Assembly: GCF_009731355.2 (NCBI RefSeq)
Contig: NZ_AP022810.1
Span: 2,570,001 to 2,634,000, forward strand
Direction of reading: 5' to 3'
Source: Desulfuromonas sp. AOP6
Lineage (GTDB): Bacteria > Desulfobacterota > Desulfuromonadia > Desulfuromonadales > SZUA-540
DNA length: 64,000 nt
Below are positions 5,189-29,144 of the stretch, one piece after another (position 1 is the first letter of the stretch; each line of letters starts with the position of its first letter). The notes under the pieces were generated by a model. It worked only from the letters and a program-made list of their open reading frames with translations, did no database searches and was not told where the DNA came from. A program made the position numbers and the translations under genes.

Positions 5189-6700
<1,512 letters not shown>

Positions 6701-23249: not shown

Positions 23250-24146
23250 ATGAATATCATGAGAAAAGCCCTGCTTTTTCCTCTGCTGGCCATCCTCCTG
23301 GCGGCGTGGCCGTCGCAGGCTGCGCCCCTTCAGGTTTTTGTCAGTGTTCTGCCGCAGAAATATATCGTCGAACGCATCGGCGGTGACGATGTAGAGGTCT
23401 CGGTCATGGTGGGGCCAGGCCGTAGCCCGGCCACTTATGAGCCGACGCCAAAGCAGATGGCCACGCTGGCCACGGCCGCCGTTTATTTTCGCATTGGGGT
23501 CGCTTTTGAAACGGTCTGGATGGAGCGCATCCGTGCCAACAATCCGGACCTGCGCATCATTGATCTGCGCGAAGGACTCGCTCTGCGCTCCATCGAAAGC
23601 CACAGCCATCACGATCATGGCCACGACCATCACGATGAAGAGGACGCCGAGGGACTTAAAGACCCCCATGTCTGGACAAGCCCCCAACTCGTTCAAGTCA
23701 TGGCTGGCAGGGTACTGTCCGTGCTGGCGACACTCAACCCGACTGGAGAAGCGACCTACCGCAGCAACTATAAGGCCCTGATGGCTGACCTCGAATCCCT
23801 CGACCGGGATATCCGGACGAAACTGTCTCCCCTGACCAATCGCCGCTTTCTCATTTTTCACCCTTCCATGGGCTATTTTGCCGACACCTACGACCTGCTG
23901 CAGGTACCCATCGAAATGGAAGGCAAGGAACCGGGGGCCAGAACCCTGGCCCGCCTGATCGACGAAGCCAGGGAGCAGAACATCCGCGTCATTTTTGTGC
24001 AGCAGCAATTCAGCCGCCGACTGGCAGAGAATATCGCCAGTTCCATCGGGGCCACGGTCATAGCCATCGATCCTCTCGCCGAGGACTATCCAACCAACAT
24101 GCGCCACATCGCGGAGGTCTTCGCCGCGGCGATGGATAAGAAATGA
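23250..24146 (+). CDS. znuA: Zinc/manganese ABC transporter, periplasmic binding protein (ZnuA-like)
   Basis: 298 residues of cluster A-I binding protein. Signal peptide 1-24. A histidine-rich loop (HSHHDHGHDHH, about residues 116-126) is typical of zinc-binding members. Metal-site motifs are DPHVW, FHPSMGYF and IDPL; but the segment that normally holds the first His (SPHxYEP) reads SPATYEPTP, so that ligand is replaced by Ala. AAAGGA precedes two nearby ATGs (23250, 23259); the first is annotated. The next gene overlaps by four bases. Zinc rather than manganese is inferred from the His loop. Confidence 0.88.
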   Translation: MNIMRKALLFPLLAILLAAWPSQAAPLQVFVSVLPQKYIVERIGGDDVEVSVMVGPGRSPATYEPTPKQMATLATAAVYFRIGVAFETVWMERIRANNPDLRIIDLREGLALRSIESHSHHDHGHDHHDEEDAEGLKDPHVWTSPQLVQVMAGRVLSVLATLNPTGEATYRSNYKALMADLESLDRDIRTKLSPLTNRRFLIFHPSMGYFADTYDLLQVPIEMEGKEPGARTLARLIDEAREQNIRVIFVQQQFSRRLAENIASSIGATVIAIDPLAEDYPTNMRHIAEVFAAAMDKK

Positions 24147-24883
24147 GCCCGGCCGTCATTGAGCTCGCCCAGGTCTTTTTCCGTTACGATGAGATCCCCG
24201 TGCTGGACAATGTCACTCTGTCCATTGAACAGGGTGAGTTTCTCGGCATTGTCGGCCCCAACGGCAGTGGCAAGAGCACCCTGCTCAAATTGATCCTGGG
24301 ACTTCTCTCGCCGACCTCGGGAAGCGTACGGGTCTTCGGGAAACAGCCCGGCCAGGCCTGCCAGAAACTGGGTTACGTACCTCAGTTCGCCACTTTTGAC
24401 CGCCGTTTCCCCATCAGTGTCTTAGATACGGTTCTGCAGGGAAGACTCGGCAAAACGAGATCAATCCTCGGCTATGGCGAAAAAGATCGGCAGGTCGCGC
24501 GGCAGGCCATGGCCGAAGCGGAAATACTAGACCTGCAGGATCGCCCCCTCTCTACCCTGTCCGGCGGGCAGAGGCAGCGGGTACTCATCGCCAGGGCGCT
24601 GGCCTGCGAACCGGAGGTGCTCATTCTCGACGAGCCCACGGCCAATATCGACCCGCGGGTCGAAGCCGGCGTCTTCGACCTGCTCCAGCGCCTTAACGAG
24701 CGCGTCACCGTCATCGTCGTCTCCCATGATATCGGTTTTATTTCCGGCTACGTCAGCCGCGTCGCCTGTCTCAACCGCACCCTGGTGTGCCATGCCACTT
24801 CCGACATTAGCGGCGAAGTAATAGAGAACCTTTACGGGATGCCCATGCAGATGGTCCATCATCACACTGTTCTTAAGAAATAA
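24143..24883 (+). CDS. znuC: Zinc/manganese ABC transporter ATPase
   Basis: 246 residues. Walker A GPNGSGKST (38-46), Q-loop VPQFATFD, signature LSGGQ (139-143), Walker B VLILDEP (159-165), switch His in VVSHD. It powers the ZnuA/ZnuB importer at the inner membrane. ATGA overlap with znuA and a seven-base gap to the permease show an operon in the order binding protein, ATPase, permease. Confidence 0.95.
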   Translation: MSPAVIELAQVFFRYDEIPVLDNVTLSIEQGEFLGIVGPNGSGKSTLLKLILGLLSPTSGSVRVFGKQPGQACQKLGYVPQFATFDRRFPISVLDTVLQGRLGKTRSILGYGEKDRQVARQAMAEAEILDLQDRPLSTLSGGQRQRVLIARALACEPEVLILDEPTANIDPRVEAGVFDLLQRLNERVTVIVVSHDIGFISGYVSRVACLNRTLVCHATSDISGEVIENLYGMPMQMVHHHTVLKK

Positions 24884-24890
24884 AGGATCC

Positions 24891-25733
24891 ATGGAAACCT
24901 TTTTTGAAGCCGTGCTGAACCAGACCTTCATGCTAAACGCCCTCATTGGTGGACTGCTGGCCAGCATTGCCTGCGGCATTGTCGGCTCCTTTGTCGTCGT
25001 CAAGCGCATCGGCTATATTGCCGGCGGCATCGCCCACGCCGTGCTGGGCGGCATGGGGATAGCCTATTATTTCGGCTATAGCCCCATTGGCGGCGCCATT
25101 GTGGCCGCCCTCCTGTCGGCGGGTATCATCGGCTGGATCAACCTGCACTGGAAACAGCAGGAAGACACCATCATCAGCGCGCTCTGGTCCGTGGGCATGG
25201 CCACCGGCGTGCTGTTCATCGCCCGTACCCCGGGCTACAACGTCGATCTCATGAGCTATCTCTTCGGCAACATTCTCATGATCCCCCGACAAGACCTCTA
25301 TCTTATTTTCATCCTCGACCTGGCCATCGCCCTCATTATCCTTCTTTTCTACAAGCAGTTTTTGGCCGTGGCCTTCGATGAGGAATTCGCCCGCCTGCGG
25401 GGCGTTCGCGTCGACCTCTTCTATCTGCTGCTTCTCGCCCTTGTTTCCCTGACCGTCGTCATCCTGATCCAGGTGGTTGGTTTGATCATGGTCATTGCCC
25501 TGCTCACACTGCCGGCAGCCATTGCTGGACATTTTGTTCACTCTCTGGCTAAGATGATGGTGCTGGCGACTCTTTTCGGAGCTTTTTTCACGACCGGCGG
25601 ACTCTTCATCTCCTACCAGCCGGATCTTCCCGCCGGGGCCACCACTGTTCTGCTGGCGGGGTTGGGTTACCTGCTTTCTTCCCTCTTTGCCAGCCTGCGC
25701 CATCGGTTTCGGCGTCCCATGAACCCACGTTGA
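24891..25733 (+). CDS. znuB: Zinc/manganese ABC transporter permease
   Basis: 280 residues with about eight membrane helices of the ABC-3 permease family (GIVGSFVVVKRIGYIAGGIA, then HAVLGGMGIAYYFG). AAAGGA is five bases before the ATG. Third gene of the znuACB operon. No Zur-like palindrome was recognised upstream of znuA. Confidence 0.94.
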   Translation: METFFEAVLNQTFMLNALIGGLLASIACGIVGSFVVVKRIGYIAGGIAHAVLGGMGIAYYFGYSPIGGAIVAALLSAGIIGWINLHWKQQEDTIISALWSVGMATGVLFIARTPGYNVDLMSYLFGNILMIPRQDLYLIFILDLAIALIILLFYKQFLAVAFDEEFARLRGVRVDLFYLLLLALVSLTVVILIQVVGLIMVIALLTLPAAIAGHFVHSLAKMMVLATLFGAFFTTGGLFISYQPDLPAGATTVLLAGLGYLLSSLFASLRHRFRRPMNPR

Positions 25734-25772: not shown

Positions 25773-27083
25773 ATGATGACCGCCTTTTGGGGCATAATGA
25801 CCCTCGGCATCCTTATATTTGTTCATGAACTGGGCCACTTTCTTGTCGCCAAATGGTCCGGCGTCAAGGTCCTTCGCTTTTCCCTCGGCTTCGGGCCCCG
25901 TCTGCTCGGCTGGAAAAAGGGAGAAACGGAATACCTCGTCTGCCTTCTCCCCTTCGGGGGCTATGTCCAGATGCACGGCGAACGCAAGAACGGTCCTGAA
26001 GAAGAACCTGTCTGCAGCGACGACGACAGGGCCTTCACGAACAAAGGGGTTCTCACCCGCATGGCCATTGTGGCGGCGGGGCCACTGACCAACCTGTTGC
26101 TTCCTTTTCTCATCCTGCCTGTCGCCTACATTGTCGGGGTGCAGACGCCCGCCTACCAGATAGAAACACCCCACATTGGCTATATTGCCACTGAAAGCCA
26201 AGCTGACGACGGTGGCTTCTTGCCTGGCGATCTGCTCGAAAGCATCGATGGGCGCTCGGTCGCCACCTGGGAAGACGCCAATTCCGTATTCGCCATGGCC
26301 GCGAAAGAGGAAGTGAACATCACCATCCGCCGCCAGGGGCAGCGGCAGGACCTGCGACTCGCCAAGGTCGCCGGCGAGAGCTATGACCTGCGCAGTGTCG
26401 GGATTTTTCCGGAGCAGGTAGCCCTTCTCGGCGAGGTCTTTGAAGGGGATCCTGCCGGAGAAGTGGGTCTGCGCGTGGGGGACCGCATTGTCGCCATCGA
26501 CGGCACGCCCATCAACAGCTGGTACGATGTGGGCACGGTCATCAATGCCTCCGGCGGTGATGAAATCGATGTGGAGGTACAACGCGAGAATGGTCTTCTT
26601 CACTTCACCATGCTGCCAGAGCAGAACGCACAGGGGCGTTTCCTGATCGGCATCTCGCCGCTTCAGGAAACCTACCTGAAACACTTTCCTCCTCTTGAGG
26701 CCATCAAGGCCGGGGCCCAGAAGACGGTGGAACTGATGCGCCTCACCGGTGACTTCCTGCGTCAGTTGGTGGCCGGCAACATTTCCACCGACAATATCGG
26801 CGGGCCGGTCATGATTGTACAGACGGCAGGGGCCGCGGCCGAAACGGGAATCGCCGCCACGCTGCTTTTTCTGGCCTTTCTCAGCATTCAGCTCGGCTTT
26901 TTGAATCTGCTCCCTGTTCCGGTGCTGGACGGCGGACATCTTGTCTTTTTTCTCATCGAATTGATCTTCAGGCGTCCCTTGCCACAGGCGGCCCAGGAAA
27001 CCGCCCTGAAATTCGGTCTTCTCCTCTTGCTGCTGCTGATGGGGCTGGCGCTGTTCAACGACTTCAGCCGCTTCTTCTCCTGA
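25773..27083 (+). CDS. rseP: RseP-type site-2 intramembrane zinc protease
   Basis: 436 residues. HELGH zinc motif at 18-22 in the first membrane helix, third ligand motif LDGGH in a C-terminal helix (PVPVLDGGHLVFF), and two PDZ-like domains between (about 125-205 and 215-290). It cleaves membrane-bound anti-sigma factors and remnant signal peptides. GGAG lies seven bases before the ATG. It follows znuB by 39 bases, which could place a zinc enzyme with a zinc importer in one transcript, but the usual uppS-cdsA-dxr neighbours are missing. Confidence 0.93.
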   Translation: MMTAFWGIMTLGILIFVHELGHFLVAKWSGVKVLRFSLGFGPRLLGWKKGETEYLVCLLPFGGYVQMHGERKNGPEEEPVCSDDDRAFTNKGVLTRMAIVAAGPLTNLLLPFLILPVAYIVGVQTPAYQIETPHIGYIATESQADDGGFLPGDLLESIDGRSVATWEDANSVFAMAAKEEVNITIRRQGQRQDLRLAKVAGESYDLRSVGIFPEQVALLGEVFEGDPAGEVGLRVGDRIVAIDGTPINSWYDVGTVINASGGDEIDVEVQRENGLLHFTMLPEQNAQGRFLIGISPLQETYLKHFPPLEAIKAGAQKTVELMRLTGDFLRQLVAGNISTDNIGGPVMIVQTAGAAAETGIAATLLFLAFLSIQLGFLNLLPVPVLDGGHLVFFLIELIFRRPLPQAAQETALKFGLLLLLLLMGLALFNDFSRFFS

Positions 27084-27174: not shown

Positions 27175-27726
27175 ATGCATCAACTCAAATTCATCCTGCT
27201 GGCAGGGGCAGTTCTGCTGCTGGCCCCATTGAGTCTGTGGGGAGCCGGAGAAGAAGGCATCTCCTATCGCGGGCTCGGGGACAGTGTCCCCATTTTCAGC
27301 TTGGCGAGCAGCCAGGATCGCCTTTTTTCCTATGATCGGGACTTTTATGGAAAACATCACCTGATCCTGACCTTCTTCCCCGCTGCCTTCACCCCTGTCT
27401 GAACGGGTGAAATGGAGGGTCATCAGAGGAATCTCTATCTCTATGACCGCTTCAACGCCCGCGTCGCGGGCGTCAGCCGGGACAATGTCGACACCCTTAA
27501 ATACTTCGCCGCCGAATACGGTCTGACATTTCCGCTTTTTTCCAATACGTCCACCTACTTGGGGACCTGGCTCGGTGCCTATGGGCCGGGGTCACCCGTT
27601 TTTGCCCGCAGGACCGTGGTCATCGACAAGTGGGGAATTATCCGCTACACCAAAAGCGGCAACCCGAATTATCACGAAGTCTTGCAGGTTCTTAAAAAAC
27701 TGCATGCCGAGGAGGTGACCCCATGA
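27175..27726 (+). CDS. Selenocysteine-containing peroxiredoxin, exported (TGA at 27400-27402 read as Sec)
   Basis: 183 residues when the in-frame TGA is read as selenocysteine 76. Both flanks are in the same frame and form one continuous AhpC/TSA-type peroxiredoxin: FFPAAFTPV-U-TGEMEGHQRNLYLY. Sec stands exactly at the peroxidatic cysteine. An N-terminal signal peptide (about 1-24) indicates a periplasmic enzyme. GGGAGG precedes the ATG. A stem GGTCAT/ATGACC (27418-27423 with 27443-27448) just after the TGA is a candidate bacterial SECIS. It overlaps the lipoprotein gene by ATGA. It should reduce peroxides in the envelope. Standard gene calling would split or truncate it. Confidence 0.88.
27402..27448 (+). 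promoter_or_regulatory. Candidate bacterial SECIS element
   Basis: Directly downstream of the UGA, a hairpin with outer stem GGTCAT/ATGACC encloses AGAG/CTCT pairing. Position fits bacterial SECIS elements, which lie immediately 3' of the UGA inside the coding region. The exact fold was not computed. Confidence 0.45.
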
Positions 27727-28340
27727 TCTTTTCCCTCACCGGTCTATGGCGACAACTGTTTATTCTGGCAATTTTTCTGCTCTTTTCCGGCTGTGCCTGG
27801 TTACCCGCCGCCGCCCCGCCACCATCCCCCCTTCAGGTTCAGGAAAACGGCACCTCGGTGTGGCAGGACGAGTTCGCCTTTGTGGCACCGCCTTCCCCCT
27901 GGGAGCTTGTCCAACTTGACGAGGACGATTATTCCCTGGCGTACATGAAGCTGTGTCGGGGCAGCTATCCCTGCCAGTCCACCCTGGCCTATGCGGAAGA
28001 GCCCTTTGGCTATTCCCTCGATTTCGAGCAGCGGGTACCGGAGTTTTTCAAACGATTCCTCTGGGCCTCCCGGGTACAGTTCGCCAAACCGACCCTGGAG
28101 AAGACGACTCTCTTCGGAAAGGAAGCGCTGATCGCCGACACCGAAGGGATTGAGCCTGTCAAGGGCCACAAGGTCTGGAGCAAAATCGTCTTTGCCCGCC
28201 GAGGCGAGCGGGTCGTCGCCTTCTACTATACCCAATGGCGGCCGGCGGAAGCCGACTACGATCAGGCAGACGTGGAGGCCTTTGACCGTTTCGTCGAGAC
28301 CTTCCGCTACCTCAAACCTTCCTTTTACGAAACCTTGTAG
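27723..28340 (+). CDS. Hypothetical lipoprotein
   Basis: 205 residues. Lipobox LFSGC after a 22-residue hydrophobic signal, then a Pro-rich stretch (PAAAPPPSP) and a compact soluble domain with two cysteines close together (LCRGSYPC). No family recognised. The start overlaps the stop of the selenocysteine peroxiredoxin (ATGA), so the two are translated together and may act together in the periplasm. Confidence 0.8.
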   Translation: MIFSLTGLWRQLFILAIFLLFSGCAWLPAAAPPPSPLQVQENGTSVWQDEFAFVAPPSPWELVQLDEDDYSLAYMKLCRGSYPCQSTLAYAEEPFGYSLDFEQRVPEFFKRFLWASRVQFAKPTLEKTTLFGKEALIADTEGIEPVKGHKVWSKIVFARRGERVVAFYYTQWRPAEADYDQADVEAFDRFVETFRYLKPSFYETL

Positions 28341-28421: not shown

Positions 28422-29144
28422 TCAGAAATTGACGACCAGGGCCACGCCGAGGATTCTGTCGGTTTTTTCCGAGCCCGGCGCCGGCTCGTTGTCGTATTTC
28501 ACGACATAACTGGTTTTCATGGACAGAAAACTGTTTAGGGCTGCGATCAGGGCCGTCTCGCTGTTCAGCAGCCAGTTGTCCGAAGTCTCGAAATCAGGCA
28601 GATATTCGAGGGTCTGCGAAAAACGGTTCTTTTCAGTAAACTGGTATTGGTATTCACCGAAAAGGCGCCCGCCCAGATATTCTTCGGAAGAGCCGTCCGT
28701 GTATTCATCCATGGTATAAGTCAGGCCGGCCTCGCCGCGCAGAAAGTGCTTGGGGCCGTCCAGAAATTTGTAGCCGAGGCCCAGGCCAAAGGTATAGCGG
28801 CTGTCGGTACCGGCGAACTTATCCTGCAGCCACCCGGCCGTGCCAAAAGTAAAGAGCCGCTCGGACAGGGCATAGTCCCCCCGCAGCTCCGTCATGTACG
28901 ATTCCGCTGTTTTTTCCCCATCCGTCTCGCCGTACAAGGCCTGCAGTTTCCAGGTCGCCAGAATCCGTTCGGTGAGGTTCACCTGAAGCTTGTTTTTAGC
29001 CGAAAGCGTGGTAACTTCCGTGTTGCCGCTGGTATCGACATAGGACAATTCCGCCTCATCGCTCCATTTCTGGTCTTCTGCCAGGGCTTCAGCCCCTGGT
29101 AGAAGCAGCAGCAGAAAAACACTCAAACACGTAAAAAATTTCAT
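28422..29144 (-). CDS. DUF481 outer-membrane beta-barrel protein
   Basis: 240 residues. Signal peptide 1-22, then repeated amphipathic strands and a C-terminal phenylalanine (VALVVNF) as in barrel proteins. The opening WSDEAELSYVDTSGNTEVTT is the DUF481 (YdiY-like, salt-induced) signature. AAGGAGGAG is five bases upstream of the ATG. The function in this family is unclear. Confidence 0.87.
   Translation of the reverse strand: MKFFTCLSVFLLLLLPGAEALAEDQKWSDEAELSYVDTSGNTEVTTLSAKNKLQVNLTERILATWKLQALYGETDGEKTAESYMTELRGDYALSERLFTFGTAGWLQDKFAGTDSRYTFGLGLGYKFLDGPKHFLRGEAGLTYTMDEYTDGSSEEYLGGRLFGEYQYQFTEKNRFSQTLEYLPDFETSDNWLLNSETALIAALNSFLSMKTSYVVKYDNEPAPGSEKTDRILGVALVVNF

Follow-up and report, generated by a model that had tools for sequence, protein, structure and literature searches.

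The window analysed here is a stretch of 64,000 nucleotides (positions 2570001–2634000) of the genome of Desulfuromonas sp. AOP6, which consists of one contig of 3.27 Mb. Near its middle lies a peroxiredoxin gene interrupted by an in-frame TGA, followed by a lipoprotein gene, and two adjacent RNA hairpins occupy the coding region after the TGA (Table 1). Upstream on the plus strand, three ORFs (23250–25733) resemble by eye a ZnuA/ZnuC/ZnuB-type metal ABC transporter, and downstream of them an RseP-like peptidase (Peptidase_M50) is encoded at 25773–27083. Beyond the lipoprotein gene, a DUF481 protein lies on the opposite strand (28422–29144, minus).

Table 1. Features of the peroxiredoxin locus in window coordinates.
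Feature	Position	Strand	Evidence
Predicted exported peroxiredoxin gene (183 aa, putative Sec at codon 76; stop TGA 27724–27726)	27175..27726	+	translation, domain match, homologs, AlphaFold
Putative Sec-encoding TGA within the PxxxTxxU active site	27400..27402	+	translation, homolog alignments
N-terminal hydrophobic segment (signal peptide or anchor; end by eye)	27175..27249	+	hydropathy
Hairpin H1, SECIS candidate: 27413–27423 and 27425–27429 pair with 27438–27448 and 27450–27454; loop 27430–27437	27413..27454	+	fold, covariation
Hairpin H2: 27455–27462 pairs with 27466–27473; loop GUC 27463–27465	27455..27473	+	fold, covariation
Lipoprotein, 205 aa; start overlaps the peroxiredoxin stop (ATGA); PsbP/Mog1-like predicted fold	27723..28340	+	lipobox, neighbourhood, structure prediction

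The start codon, the inner TGA, and the terminal TGA share a single frame with no further stop. When the inner TGA was read as a residue, positions 27175–27723 gave 183 amino acids with one U at codon 76; standard ORF calling on this frame gave only a 104-aa fragment (27412–27726). The AhpC-TSA domain (PF00578) matched the read-through protein at E 1.2e-19 over residues 35–158, spanning the TGA, which agrees with the original prediction that both flanks stay in frame. PDB peroxiredoxins were sequence matches of the read-through protein, and U lay opposite the active-site Cys of AhpE and the catalytic Cys of Cys relatives. P69, T73, and U76 build the PxxxTxxU motif. The AhpC-TSA domain, TxxU peroxidatic motif, and in-frame TGA place the protein among the selenocysteine peroxiredoxins, which as such are a known kind: the available parts of PMC1794560 and PMC13188914 already catalogue this family (TxxU, PF00578) in bacteria. 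An identical gene is present in G001, a genome of the same genus. The gene product is very probably a selenium-containing, peroxide-destroying enzyme sent out of the cell interior.

The TGA had been placed at the peroxidatic position from a single sequence, and homologs bore this out. Opposite codon 76, a stop was found in 92 of 92 tblastn matches with at least 45% identity among the fetched loci (44 distinct, window included); below 45% identity, 46 matches had a stop and 13 had Cys at that residue. Within the order, 50 of 136 genomes gave a peroxiredoxin match at E 1e-8. The close clade occurred in 21 of these 50, as 20 matches with at least 56% identity and one TGA each, together with a copy in G126 divided over two contigs. 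A second group in the order, about 29–40% identical, likewise had the TGA, and four Cys relatives (36–44% identity) were found in G005, G123, and G124. Scanning one genome for each GTDB species led to 27 loci. Among the matches listed for 395 phylum genomes, with up to nine candidates scored in each, all 25 at E 1e-25 held the TGA.

For the clade, 36 loci were picked with a U-containing pattern and ten duplicate contigs were dropped. Because the picking pattern contains U, the TGA in these 36 loci is no count, while the 92 of 92 is free of that choice. Alignment A1 comprised 35 full-length distinct clade genes, with the truncated L043 outside it, and eight more were used out of sample; L077, missed by the first pattern, was later used out of sample. 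Phylum loci repeating earlier loci were counted once. The mature part had no Cys besides Sec in 36 of 36 loci (L043 truncated) and in 8 of 8 further members, so that the chain has no resolving cysteine and is of the 1-Cys (here 1-Sec) type. Three loci (L070, L075, and L076) carried a Cys peroxiredoxin (TPVC) 2.6–5.4 kb upstream of the Sec-peroxiredoxin, and the N-terminus of this TPVC protein reached the hydrophobicity limit used below in one of the three.

The SelA, SelB, SelC, and SelD implied by a selenocysteine codon were all found on the same chromosome, and the absence of this machinery, named beforehand as the outcome that would count against the prediction, was looked for and not seen. 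The best tRNA-Sec match scored 77.3 bits at 2450386–2450477, where ARAGORN called a tRNA-SeC with anticodon tca; a second match was barely at the 47-bit cut-off. SelA (620 bits), SelB (395 bits), and SelD (359 bits) exceeded their curated cut-offs, and their genes are neighbours, together at 2468469–2472736. The host SelD (L018) has an in-frame TGA of its own (SAG-U-AAKLGP) and is therefore probably a selenoprotein too.

The N-terminus of the clade proteins indicates a signal peptide or anchor. A 15-aa N-terminal stretch with a Kyte-Doolittle mean of at least 1.6 was present in 43 of 43 clade members, all above 1.9, versus none of the 24 Bcp controls (20 of them measurable), which supports export as suggested by the signal peptide of the original prediction. 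A lipobox-like match was seen in 5 of the 43 N-termini with a crude pattern that misses some visible by eye. The AlphaFold model of residues 33–183 showed a peroxiredoxin fold (pLDDT 94.5). Its best structural matches were Bcp1 (Z 23.9, rmsd 1.6, 147 residues), Bcp4, and the 1-Cys peroxiredoxin AhpE (Z 23.5), with many other peroxiredoxins within about 1 Z unit. AhpE (PDB 1xxu, 4x0x) and Sulfolobus Bcp1 (3drn) were among the best matches by both structure and sequence. As in AhpE, catalysis would depend on one chalcogen, and a resolving Cys is absent; unlike AhpE and Bcp1, the protein is predicted to have Sec in place of Cys and to be exported. Arg145 lay opposite an Arg of AhpE in the alignment, which we take to be Arg116 of the mutant entry 4xih. 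The NCBIfam model NF040737 (peroxi_PrxU) gave 26.1 bits against a curated cut-off of 270, which leaves the protein outside that family.

With the bacterial Sec-peroxiredoxins of PMC1794560 and PMC13188914, as far as the available parts describe them, the window protein shares the TxxU site, the peroxiredoxin fold, and occurrence in Deltaproteobacteria. Its clade differs in the hydrophobic N-terminus, the Cys-free mature part, the lipoprotein partner, and the two hairpins after the UGA, on all of which those parts of the two papers make no statement. PMC1794560 lists Sec-peroxiredoxins for Syntrophus and Geobacter. A search of literature titles and abstract openings, covering few subscription papers and no bioRxiv preprints, returned no exported Sec-peroxiredoxin, no second bacterial SECIS hairpin, and no report of this lipoprotein.

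The partner lipoprotein has an FSGC lipobox with a nearly invariant Cys24. It gave no match in Pfam or NCBIfam, and no Pfam family was listed even at E values as high as 1. The ATGA overlap of its start with the peroxiredoxin stop was present in 35 of the 36 loci with sequence there, L061 being gapped. Among the matches listed for the order, all 25 full-length lipoprotein copies adjoined a peroxiredoxin (21 Sec and 4 Cys), and a 26th, partial match in G108 (38 bits, 48 positions) lay away from any peroxiredoxin. Lipoprotein matches were listed in all 21 of the order's clade genomes and, in the phylum sample, in 20 of 20 genomes with a clade match of at least 198 bits, three of which are also in the order set (among the matches listed in both cases). 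One genome outside those 20, G284, carried part of the lipoprotein at a contig start. In G369 there was a second, partial match. At the Cys-peroxiredoxin loci L122 and L123 the overlap was again ATGA, and at L121 the lipoprotein started 21 nt after the first base of the peroxiredoxin stop. At L120 (G123:C20), the Cys-peroxiredoxin and the lipoprotein domain were found in one 427-codon ORF with the lipobox mid-way, as a fusion or a lost stop.

The predicted structure of the lipoprotein (pLDDT 87.8) resembled the PsbP-type CyanoP 2xb3 (VIA-align Z 11.7, rmsd 3.0, 139 residues) and Mog1 1eq6 (Z 11.4). Identity to these proteins was 10–14% with no Pfam match, so the likeness to PsbP is one of predicted fold, and function is not transferable from it. 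The two non-lipobox cysteines were considered as a redox pair; of the 39 sequences aligned, counting duplicate contigs, 23 have one and 24 the other, so such a pair is not general. The lipoprotein most likely anchors the peroxiredoxin, delivers substrate, or brings reductant.

The RNA after the TGA is constrained beyond its protein. Synonymous constraint spanned about 25 codons past the TGA: mean excess codon identity was 0.35 at +1 to +21 (20 columns) versus 0.08 elsewhere (127 columns; p 4e-7), and the best 21-codon stretch began at +4. The codons of Gly +6 and Asp/Glu +15 were linked, as GGT-GAC in 22, GGC-GAG in 12, GGG-GAC in 1, and GGG-GAG in 1 of 36 genes. The stem-loop that the original prediction placed after the TGA was recovered with 81 bases (z −4.51; 1 of 200 shuffles as good) and not with 46 (z 0.36), since the stem is complete only with 54 bases and another hairpin comes after it. 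Folds of 34–46 nt after the TGA gave no signal, and 61 nt gave z −1.36. At gathering score, a tRNA was the sole Rfam hit across the window. With strict filters, model R1 matched the host genome once (E 0.01) among 33 scored candidates. A stem spanning the UGA itself, drawn by eye, was dropped, as the third base of Gly +2 varies without preserving it.

Compensatory changes support the two adjacent hairpins H1 and H2, and covariation supports a structured RNA extending to about 73 nt past the UGA. Neither H2 nor the coupled lipoprotein gene was part of the original prediction. In the 35 sequences of A1, the two-hairpin structure had 95.0% of cells paired versus 92.3 in shuffles, 26 cells changed on both sides versus 9.3, and a covariation score that none of 500 shuffles attained. 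On one of the five covariation measures, the count of further pair types, it was no better than shuffles (318 of 500 reached it). H2 showed double changes in 4 of 8 pairs with 97.9% of cells paired, and H1 in 1 of 16 pairs with 93.6%. RNAalifold alone predicted H2 and a shorter H1 whose lower part is displaced by one base. In the drawn register, the H1 alignment columns 20/48 and 21/47 were unpaired in 13 and 14 of the 35 sequences; pairing there requires that the register shift and an A bulge out.

Changes on the same branch were counted on trees built without this RNA region; pair numbers take the T of the TGA as position 0 (window position = 27400 + number). H2 pair 57/71 showed 5.2–5.5 double changes versus 0.79 expected, pair 61/67 showed 2.0 versus 0.24, and pair 56/72 showed 1.0 versus 0.02. 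The innermost H2 pair, 62/66, hardly co-changed (0.5–0.6 branches versus 0.3 expected). For H1, pair 29/38 gave 4.0–4.5 versus 0.5–0.7 expected, and pair 20/47 of the shifted register gave 2.9–3.5 versus 0.36; pair 20/46 of the drawn register showed no same-branch co-change.

Of the 89 distinct Sec-peroxiredoxins examined, 86 have H2 with 7–8 of its 8 pairs. These include two genes missed by the pattern and added later (L160 and L165, with 8 and 7 pairs) to a set of 84, from which one gene identical over the 84 nt had been dropped. Out of sample, the 8 further clade members and 13 other Sec-peroxiredoxins also had 7–8 pairs. The H1 drawn here misfits those 13 (mean 6.6 of 16 pairs); by eye, the minimum-energy folds of 12 other Sec-peroxiredoxins have a hairpin of different sequence at the place of H1 in 11. 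Against a synonymous-codon null, H2 gave z 14.3, 7.0, and 7.1 in the Sec groups (values inflated by relatedness) versus 0.8 (n = 4), 0.4 (n = 3), and 2.0 (n = 24, Bcp) in the Cys groups. The corresponding values for H1 were 18.3, 4.2, and 3.0 versus 1.9, 1.9, and 3.5 (Bcp). Because the Cys and Bcp controls also slightly exceed this null, z values up to about 4 have no weight here.

In minimum-energy folds, a hairpin of at least 6 pairs at the place of H2 was present in 23 of 43 clade genes, 40 of 41 other Sec-peroxiredoxins, and 4 of 31 Cys controls. Failures of H2 among the 84 genes concerned the innermost pair 62/66 in 11 and pair 55/73 in 2. The remaining three Sec-peroxiredoxins, L159, L164, and L186, have the TGA and only 3–4 of 8 pairs, and were therefore kept apart from the H2-bearing set. 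By eye, these three have no evident signal peptide. In two of them the minimum-energy fold contains a compact hairpin whose GGUCU loop lies 15 nt past the TGA; in the third this hairpin is seen by eye. Chloroflexota are represented in the comparison by L079 alone (6001–6423, H2 8 of 8 pairs), in which a glutaredoxin-like stretch follows the Sec-peroxiredoxin in the same ORF by eye.

The bacterial SECIS model, as given in the available part of PMC13188914, has a 3–9 nt loop with G in its first two places, located 16–37 nt after the UGA, and a subset of genes is stated there not to fit it. The window gene shares with this model a stem-loop in the coding region directly after the UGA, but has two hairpins where the model has one. 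Neither satisfied the rule in the minimum-energy fold, with the model's energy limit left aside: the H1 loop AAUCUCUA lies at 27 nt without G in its first two positions, whereas the H2 loop GUC follows a GUN pattern at 60 nt from the UGA. A less favoured alternative hairpin, AGAG-GAAU-CUCU, would satisfy the rule by eye. A qualifying hairpin occurred in the minimum-energy fold of 4 of 84 H2-bearing Sec-peroxiredoxins, none of the 3 compact ones, and 6 of 31 Cys controls; in this set the rule therefore fails to discriminate.

For the roles of the two hairpins, we tentatively suggest that H2 may be the one bound by SelB, as a distal SECIS located some 60 nt past the UGA and thus outside 16–37 nt, and that H1 may serve as a spacer helix bringing H2 to the decoding site; we regard this as possible rather than probable. 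The H2 loop was GUN in 84 of 84 Sec-peroxiredoxins and begins with the G-U preferred in the published model, though it is partly forced by the protein because Val is conserved there. H2 is also kept in Sec-peroxiredoxins with a different H1 sequence, including one Chloroflexota contig. In addition, the H1 loop lacks the G of the published model, and the Sec-peroxiredoxins without H2 carry the compact GGUCU hairpin at 15 nt.

H1 alone could instead be the SECIS, with H2 acting outside Sec insertion in ribosome pausing, mRNA stability, or tuning of the coupled gene, and to this we give substantial credence, a little short of an even chance. The loop of H1 lies at the usual distance, H2 is beyond the range given in the available part of PMC13188914, and L159, L164, and L186 carry the TGA without H2. 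However, H2 tracks Sec, in 86 of 89 distinct Sec-peroxiredoxins against Cys relatives that have 3–7 of 8 pairs, near the synonymous null. H2 had 8 of 8 pairs in L115, L116, and L117, the Sec-peroxiredoxins of G198, G418, and G358, genomes with no lipoprotein among the matches listed.

It is improbable that H2 is an artefact of protein conservation, in which the peptide A/T-Q/R-V-L-G in GC-rich codons is nearly palindromic. The stretch GCCCAGGTCCTGGGC is almost self-complementary, and 7 of 8 pairs were present in 4 of the 24 Bcp controls, including L138 with the same peptide, in a group with z 2.0. (Thirty Bcp controls were fetched and six off-pattern ones set aside, one of which, later read, had 3 of 8 pairs; seven further Bcp matches lie outside the set.) Against this, the excess over the synonymous null, even if inflated by relatedness, is far larger in the Sec groups. 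Moreover, three pairs vary without ever being unpaired in the 84 genes and co-change on the tree: 56/72 (CG 72, UA 8, UG 4), 57/71 (GC 62, AU 14, GU 8), and 61/67 (AU 48, GC 19, GU 17).

For the UGA itself, reading as an ordinary amino acid, or dominant termination with a short product that matters, is very unlikely: the genome has a complete Sec machinery, codon 76 lies where Cys relatives have their catalytic Cys, and a truncated chain would lack the catalytic residue. A pseudogene, or a TGC/TGT misread as TGA, is conceivable for one TGA in a single genome, but this misreading, named beforehand as a way for the prediction to fail, is excluded: all 44 distinct stretches with 45% identity or more carry this stop. 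The intact flanks, the synonymous constraint past the TGA, and the Sec machinery also speak against a pseudogene or misreading.

From the sequence evidence, we consider it highly likely that the product is an exported peroxiredoxin with one selenocysteine, whose gene heads a two-gene unit completed by the lipoprotein of predicted PsbP-like fold, and that UGA 27400 is read as Sec via a two-hairpin RNA. The ribosome would read the UGA using the host tRNA-Sec and SelB, guided by the two adjacent downstream hairpins. Once exported, the enzyme would reduce peroxide through Sec76, which the PxxxT motif and the conserved Arg145 would hold in place, and this residue would become a selenenic acid. Regenerating Sec76 would take an external reductant, since the mature chain is free of cysteine. 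The ATGA overlap would couple translation of the lipoprotein to that of the peroxiredoxin, and its output would thereby be tied to Sec read-through. If H2 is the hairpin bound by SelB, selenium supply would also gate the lipoprotein, because its start codon overlaps the stop.

Searches for bacterial selenoprotein genes often use a one-hairpin model, and 80 of the 84 H2-bearing Sec-peroxiredoxins fail its loop and spacing rule in the minimum-energy fold. Which of the two hairpins SelB binds bears on how distant from its codon a SECIS can be.
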